Source: Thermoproteota archaeon (GTDB taxonomy: Archaea > Thermoproteota > Thermoprotei_A > Sulfolobales > Ignisphaeraceae). Taken from it: a stretch of DNA of 64,000 nucleotides. The DNA lies in the NCBI GenBank assembly GCA_030550585.1, contig JAUQPB010000001.1, positions 124,001 through 188,000 of the forward strand, given 5' to 3'. Numbering within the stretch: position 1 is the first letter of the stretch; every line of letters begins with the position of its first letter. Below are positions 441 to 54,435 of the stretch, piece after piece. The position numbers and the translations under genes were made by a program. The notes beneath the pieces were generated by a model. It was not told the DNA's origin. It saw only the letters and a program-made list of their open reading frames with translations, and did no database searches.

Positions 441-500
441 AAAATGTGATGAGCTCAGGCGACTCTGAATAGTGATGTGGTCAGCCTTGGCTGAACCAAC
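441..500 (+). ncRNA. C/D box sRNA candidate (2'-O-methylation guide)
   Basis: All four boxes occur in order: C GTGATGA (446-452), guide GCTCAGGCGACT (453-464, 12 nt), D' CTGA (465-468), spacer of 3, C' GTGATGT (472-478), guide GGTCAGCCTTGG (479-490, 12 nt), D CTGA (491-494). This spacing matches archaeal dual-guide sRNAs that bind L7Ae, Nop5 and fibrillarin. It lies in the divergent gap before the YjbQ-like genes, with a TATA-like run at about 391-399. The D guide contains TCAGCCTTG, complementary to a CAAGGCTGA segment I recall from archaeal 16S rRNA near E. coli position 900. That target is tentative. Ends are approximate. Confidence 0.85.
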
Positions 501-14443: not shown

Positions 14444-15451
14444 GTGGTTTTGTTGGAGCTATTTTTAGGTGTCAAGAAATGTCTGCTGTTTTTCGCTGTT
14501 GGTGGTGGAGGTGATGTTGCGACAGCATCTATGCTTGCGCTGGCTGCTAGAAGACTTGGTCTAAGGTCTTTTGTTGCTAGTGTAGTTTGGGAGAGGTTTG
14601 TTGTGGATCCTGTTCCAGGCCCTATCAAATTTGATGAGATTTCTGGTGGTAGGCGTATAGGCGATTGCTCTATGCTTGTTGATGGCAATTCCAAGGCTTT
14701 TAGAGGTGGTAGGGAGGTTGTTTTCCAGGCGGCTAGAGCCTCTAGGTTTCTTGGAGAGCCTATTGCCATTATCGATCTTGTAGGTGGTGTCTATGGCGTT
14801 AGGAAGGGTTTGGAAGAGGTGTTGAATCACTTTGGATGCGAAACTGTTGTGGCTGTTGATGTTGGGGGAGATATTGTTGCAACAGGTTTTGAAGAGGATT
14901 TGTGGAGCCCCCTAGCAGATTTCACAGGGCTTGCGGCATTGGCCCAGCTAAAAGGTGTTGTAGCTGTTCATTCTCCTGGAGGCGATGGGGAGCTACCCCA
15001 AGACTATGTTTTGAAGAGAATCTCGCTCATAGCAGAGCATGGTGGCTACCTCGGGGCCAGGGGCGTTACTAGAGAAGATGTTGAGAATCTTGAGAAGATA
15101 CTTGAGTTTGTTGAGAGCGAGGCTAGTAGGGCAACACTATTAGCTGCTAAAGGTGCTTGGGGTTACGTTTCTCTTCGAAAGGGTAGTAGAGAGACCTTCA
15201 TATCACCAGTGAATCTATTGACCTTCTTTCTAGACTCAACTGTCGTGGCATCGCTGAACCCTGTCATAAGGTACATCGAAAATTGTAAAAACATCGAATG
15301 TGCAAGAAGAAAACTCAACGAGCTTGGCATATTCACAGAGCTTGATCTCGAGGAAGAGGTGTACAAGCTAATCCAAAGAGGTGTTGAGATAACAGGAGAT
15401 GTTCTCCTAGATATAAAGAAAAGGTTTAGAAAATCTATCAGCAAAGGGTGA
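14444..15451 (+). CDS. DUF1152 family protein
   Basis: 335 residues. The N-terminal FFAVGGGGDVATASMLALAA and FDEISGG are typical of archaeal DUF1152 proteins, whose function is unknown. A glycine-rich nucleotide-binding-like loop lies at about residues 15-22. The frame opens at GTG 14444, but GGTGG (14443-14447) sits five bases before TTG 14453, which would start the protein three codons later. Its 3' end is overlapped on the other strand by a C/D sRNA candidate. Confidence 0.75.
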   Translation: MVLLELFLGVKKCLLFFAVGGGGDVATASMLALAARRLGLRSFVASVVWERFVVDPVPGPIKFDEISGGRRIGDCSMLVDGNSKAFRGGREVVFQAARASRFLGEPIAIIDLVGGVYGVRKGLEEVLNHFGCETVVAVDVGGDIVATGFEEDLWSPLADFTGLAALAQLKGVVAVHSPGGDGELPQDYVLKRISLIAEHGGYLGARGVTREDVENLEKILEFVESEASRATLLAAKGAWGYVSLRKGSRETFISPVNLLTFFLDSTVVASLNPVIRYIENCKNIECARRKLNELGIFTELDLEEEVYKLIQRGVEITGDVLLDIKKRFRKSISKG

Positions 15452-15492
15452 GATCATCACCTCATCAGCTCTTCCCTCTATCATCACATATA
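15433..15492 (-). ncRNA. C/D box sRNA candidate overlapping a stop codon
   Basis: On the minus strand: C GTGATGA (15487-15481), guide TAGAGGGAAGAG (12 nt), D' CTGA (15468-15465), spacer of 4, C' GTGATGA (15460-15454), guide TCTCACCCTTTG (12 nt), D CTGA (15441-15438). All four boxes match consensus. The C box contains the TGA stop of the small gene at 15484-15756, so the RNA may be processed from that gene's message. The 3' half is antisense to the end of the DUF1152 gene. A short CTA/TAG flank could form a terminal stem. Confidence 0.88.
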
Positions 15493-15756
15493 GTTAATGG
15501 ATCTGCTAGCCCTGTTCTCAGCCTCAATCAATGCAACAACATTTTGCAACCCCTTTACAAAGCCCTCTACAACAATACCCTCATACTTTCTAAACAACTC
15601 GTTAACAACTTTCTCTGCATCGCTTCTCAAAGGCTTCAACTCCAAAACAATGCAGACCTCTACATAATCAGCTATATCCGCACATACCCTAGCAGAGGTC
15701 GTACTAACCTCCTCTACAGTGACCTTGCCGATTCCCGGAATATCAAAACTTTTCAT
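15484..15756 (-). CDS. Hypothetical 90-residue protein
   Basis: Not recognised. Soluble, mixed alpha/beta: N-terminal strands (KSFDIPGIGKVTVEEV), a Cys-containing strand (YVEVCIVLELK), then two helices. ATG 15756. The neighbouring HD gene is divergent. The stop codon lies inside the C box of an sRNA candidate, and the two may share a transcript. Confidence 0.55.
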   Translation of the reverse strand: MKSFDIPGIGKVTVEEVSTTSARVCADIADYVEVCIVLELKPLRSDAEKVVNELFRKYEGIVVEGFVKGLQNVVALIEAENRASRSINYM

Positions 15757-30227: not shown

Positions 30228-30287
30228 TTGCTTCAGAGCTACTCCGGTTTCATCACAGTTCATTGCCATCGCCACTCATCATCTAAA
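30228..30287 (-). ncRNA. C/D box sRNA candidate
   Basis: On the minus strand: C ATGATGA (30282-30276), guide GTGGCGATGGCA (12 nt), D' ATGA (30263-30260, one base off consensus), spacer of 3, C' GTGATGA (30256-30250), guide AACCGGAGTAGCT (13 nt), D CTGA (30236-30233). A TATA box on the same strand is centred about 26 bases before the expected 5' end, so this RNA probably has its own promoter. Confidence 0.82.
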
Positions 30288-54367: not shown

Positions 54368-54435
54368 TGAGAATCAGAAGCGCCAGCCGTCATCACAATG
54401 GTGTTCAGATGGGGTTTTAGACACATCACTATCCA
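54368..54435 (-). ncRNA. C/D box sRNA candidate with a long internal spacer
   Basis: On the minus strand: C GTGATGT (54429-54423), guide of 14 nt GTCTAAAACCCCAT, D' CTGA (54408-54405), spacer of 8, C' GTGATGA (54396-54390), guide CGGCTGGCGCTT (12 nt), D CTGA (54377-54374). The spacer and first guide are longer than usual, so the D guide is the more credible one. It lies in the 280-base gap after L38e, which otherwise shows only a TATA-like run (54481-54490). Confidence 0.65.

Follow-up and report, generated by a model that had tools for sequence, protein, structure and literature searches.

Overlap between box C/D sRNA genes and the ends of protein genes is a familiar feature of archaeal genomes. 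According to the passages of PMC7994747 that cite Tripp 2017, approximately 25% of the C/D sRNA genes in archaea run into the 3' end of a gene and contain its stop codon, which in almost half of these cases falls in the C box, so that a stop codon within the C box is already known as a common arrangement in archaea. For their biogenesis, the same passages give an established model in which the sRNA has no promoter of its own, is co-transcribed with the host gene, and is then trimmed around a core bound by protein, its processing being independent of the flanks (PMC7994747, citing Tripp 2017). Helices 90-93 of 23S rRNA are a known hotspot of archaeal methylation (PMC4644070; PMC7994747), and archaeal double-guide sRNAs directed to them have been described (PMC4644070).

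The locus analyzed here lies in a 64,000-nucleotide stretch of archaeal DNA, referred to as the window, and is composed of the following features:

14444..15451, plus strand: DUF1152 gene, start uncertain (PF06626, E 7e-102)
15484..15756, minus strand: 90-codon gene with no assigned family, likely the host transcript of the sRNA, with protein homologues in same-genus genomes
15438..15487, minus strand: core of the box C/D sRNA (C box through D box); the boxes are exact, and at least nine genomes share the guide pair
15481..15487, minus strand: C box, GTGATGA, in which the 90-codon gene has its stop codon
15469..15480, minus strand: D' guide, TAGAGGGAAGAG, of which the 8 nt adjoining D' are complementary to 23S CUCUUCCC
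15465..15468, minus strand: D' box, CTGA
15461-15464, minus strand: D'-C' spacer, TGAG
15454..15460, minus strand: C' box, GTGATGA
15442..15453, minus strand: D guide, TCTCACCCTTTG, complementary to 23S CCAAGGGUGGGG
15438..15441, minus strand: D box, CTGA

The boxes follow one another in the order C, D', C', D with exact 12/4/12 spacing, the architecture of an archaeal C/D guide sRNA; the original prediction of perfect boxes with this spacing was borne out, on the minus strand, which it had left unstated. Its statement that the TGA of the C box ends a 90-residue gene agrees with the open reading frame at 15756-15484 (minus strand), whose stop codon at 15486-15484 is bases 2-4 of the C box, giving a same-strand overlap. 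It had also placed the sRNA antisense to the 3' end of DUF1152, and this too was recovered: the DUF1152 gene ends inside the D guide at 15451, so that 14 nt of the boxed sRNA, within the D guide and D box, are antisense to its final 14 nt. What the sequences show of the element is its anatomy, the conservation of its guide pair, and its complementarity to 23S rRNA.

Overall, the element is very probably a dual-guide box C/D sRNA of the ordinary archaeal type, most likely derived from the 3' part of the mRNA of the 90-codon gene and guiding two methylations of 23S rRNA. It resembles the 3'-overlapping archaeal C/D sRNAs, as outlined in the passages of PMC7994747 that report Tripp et al. (2017), in its same-strand overlap, the UGA in its C box, its dual guides, and the absence of any visible promoter-like element; relative to that outline, it differs only in matching no Rfam family and in overlapping the 3' end of an opposing gene as well. 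The Rfam search matched no family with the sRNA. A stable structure was considered as a further mark of the RNA and rejected, the fold z-score being only -1.0, which is not unexpected for C/D RNAs; the minimum free energy structure has the two guides paired together. The D' and D guides are in fact mutually complementary (AGAGGG / CCCUUU), and this pairing dominates the predicted fold.

The 90-codon gene has protein homologues in five genomes of the same genus, with identities of 86% and 45-49%, and another with 40% identity in a different family of the order; the gene is therefore regarded as real. No accepted Pfam match exists for its product, and searches of Pfam and PDB gave only weak matches below threshold (best E 0.0013), which were rejected as a basis for naming the protein. 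A scan of genome contigs with the protein returned a single match, of 37% identity, on a Dehalococcoidia contig. No archaeal promoter was apparent by eye in the approximately 50 nt upstream of the C box, and processing from the mRNA of the 90-codon gene is therefore likely, by analogy with the described systems. A sigma-70-type site was also absent from the region, although this bacterial-type scan is uninformative for archaea.

A C-D'-C' pattern matched at 30 places in the genome as a whole, whereas its reversed form matched nowhere. A second guide and a D box complete 29 of these matches, so that the organism has a C/D sRNA set normal for an archaeon. Forty first-order shuffles of the window contained neither strict nor relaxed motifs, compared with four relaxed matches in the real window. 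Besides the locus under study, three C/D sRNA-like motifs occur in the window, at 446-494 (plus), 30233-30282 (minus), and 54374-54429 (minus); a same-strand frame of 131 codons stops at the D' box of the first. In the scan of the whole genome, the TGA of the C box terminates a same-strand candidate frame of 90 codons or more in three other matches (L123, L124, and L133), and in three matches a candidate frame stops at the D' box.

Targets were sought in the complete 16S and 23S rRNA of a close relative (G005), since the 16S and the 5' part of the 23S stand as N in the own genome, with scores averaged over the members of the sRNA family. The best site of the D' guide was 23S position 2674 (CUCUUCCC) and that of the D guide was 23S position 2703 (CCAAGGGUGGGG), 29 nt apart in domain V; both sites are identical in the 23S fragment of the own genome. 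Complementarity to rRNA therefore adjoins both the D and the D' box, as is typical of guide sRNAs. None of 1,000 permutations reached the joint score of the two guides. Taken singly, the D' guide was equaled by 22 of 1,000 permutations, a modest result, and the D guide by 212 of 1,000, which is not unusual and is unconvincing alone. Pairing at the D' site extends over no more than 8 bp, and in the D guide the second base counted from the D box is mismatched. The bases of the D' guide that never vary are the ones paired with 23S CUCUUCCC, and the altered D guide of another genome (G015) still forms 10 uninterrupted Watson-Crick pairs with the 23S site given above for this guide.

For C/D guides, the N+5 rule places the methylated base. 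By this rule, the predicted methylations would be at the equivalents of E. coli U2514 (D') and G2543 (D), which fall in the helix 90-92 region of 23S rRNA, near the catalytic centre of the ribosome. The element is similar to the archaeal double-guide sRNAs for 23S helices 90-93, as presented in the main text of PMC4644070, in that its two guides point to neighbouring positions within the hotspot of domain V; the equivalents of U2514 and G2543 themselves were not found in that main text. Other targets were also considered. A scan of the 42 tRNA genes of the genome revealed nothing comparable to the dual 23S sites, and the 16S sites of the D guide (G005 16S positions 1450, 1386, and 898) scored below the 23S site over all members, with G015 fitting them worse. 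The E. coli 16S and 23S rRNAs were a poor proxy because the D' site differs there.

The guide pair is present in at least nine genomes of two families (G000, G005, G002, G136, G001, G006, G126, G015, and G011) with varying flanks, so that boxes and guides are kept independently of their neighbours in several different contexts. A search with the guide-pair pattern gave one match each in five of 297 genomes, and the reversed control gave none. Conservation across the relatives is confined to the boxes and the guide bases adjoining them and does not extend to the host gene, the position of the sRNA, or the stop-codon overlap. G005 has the identical arrangement and differs at one position in the 50 nt of the sRNA, compared with eight per 100 nt in each flank. 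The same gene in G002 terminates in a TAG that precedes the C box by 2 nt, with boxes and guides retained. In G136, which belongs to another family, the sRNA is antisense to the DUF1152 end and has no overlapping upstream gene, and in G001, G006, and G126 it is found at other loci without an overlapping long frame. In G015 and G011, the C box and D' guide are read through by an unrelated frame, whose stop lies in the C' box. The copy in G010 has the stop in its C box, a D guide split by a palindromic insert of approximately 40 nt, and CTGG as its D' box, and looks decayed. This insert (L010, about 1700-1770) resembles the ends of IS200/IS605 elements, and close to the start of that genome's homologue of the 90-codon gene there is another, similar palindrome. 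Further matches to the sRNA model (L147 and L150) were obtained in G155 (E 3e-15) and G014 (E 1e-9). Under stricter filters, five of the 11 genomes of the genus (G003, G004, G007, G008, and G009) had no match to the model; the predicted methylations would therefore not be universal.

The sharing of the stop codon might itself be regulatory, with L7Ae/k-turn binding and translation termination competing for the same UGA, so that translation of the 90-codon gene and maturation of the sRNA control each other. The stop lies inside the C box in G000, in G005, and in the decayed G010 copy, three further candidates of the own genome carry a C-box stop, and L7Ae has been proposed as a translation regulator in archaea (PMC5539422). 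However, G002 loses the overlap yet retains both the boxes and the coding end, other boxes or no gene are used elsewhere, and published reporter tests of 3' overlaps gave neutral or slightly negative effects (PMC7994747); such regulation is very improbable here. That the shared UGA would make ribosome termination and L7Ae/k-turn assembly mutually exclusive, thereby coupling sRNA maturation to expression of the 90-codon protein, is highly improbable. A special link between peptide gene and RNA, implied by the original prediction, found no support, as the guide pair occurs in relatives without that gene and with others. The prediction had further named loss of the boxes where the coding end is kept as the outcome that would count against the RNA; the opposite was found, the boxes persisting where the coding end does not. 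The RNA is therefore supported and the stop overlap is an accident of placement, a recurring by-product, judged from sequence, of compact packing.

Another possibility is that the sRNA acts on the 3' end of the DUF1152 mRNA, as an antisense RNA or as a methylation guide. The 14-nt overlap is perfectly complementary and includes the stop codon of DUF1152, and the antisense placement recurs in G136, across a family boundary; this reading is nevertheless very unlikely, since the guide pair persists without any DUF1152 overlap in G001, G006, G126, G015, and G011, and the conserved guide bases are explained by the rRNA target. The antisense overlap gives DUF1152 the C-terminus ...SKG-stop in G000, G005, G002, and G136. 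A different conserved C/D sRNA, with guides ACGGCTGT / ACCCGTGTT, lies antisense downstream of DUF1152 in five genomes of the genus (L015, L017, L020, L021, and L024), and G000 has a relative of it at C3:216710 (L116). That the motif is merely a coding end with a repeated TGATGA and no RNA gene is hardly credible, for although gene ends could give rise to boxes containing TGA, the shuffled windows had no such motifs, the sRNA is kept at non-coding and unrelated loci, and the conservation of the guides agrees with the rRNA.

For the dual-guide sRNA, we infer expression, processing, and methylation along the following lines. The sRNA would be transcribed as the 3' part of the mRNA of the 90-codon gene; its C/D and C'/D' motifs would recruit L7Ae, Nop5, and fibrillarin, which would shield the core while nucleases trimmed the flanks. 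The mature particle would then methylate two nucleotides of 23S domain V, 29 nt apart. The motif RTGATGA contains a TGA and the genes are tightly packed, which would account for the position of the stop codon in the C box; the stop would have no part in the mechanism.

What this case contributes is a clear comparative series in which one guide pair retains its complementarity to rRNA as its position shifts; depending on the genome, the stop codon of one gene or another lies in its C box or its C' box, or there is none. Two checkable methylations of 23S rRNA are predicted, and the series supports the core of boxes and guides as the conserved unit, with stop sharing incidental to it.
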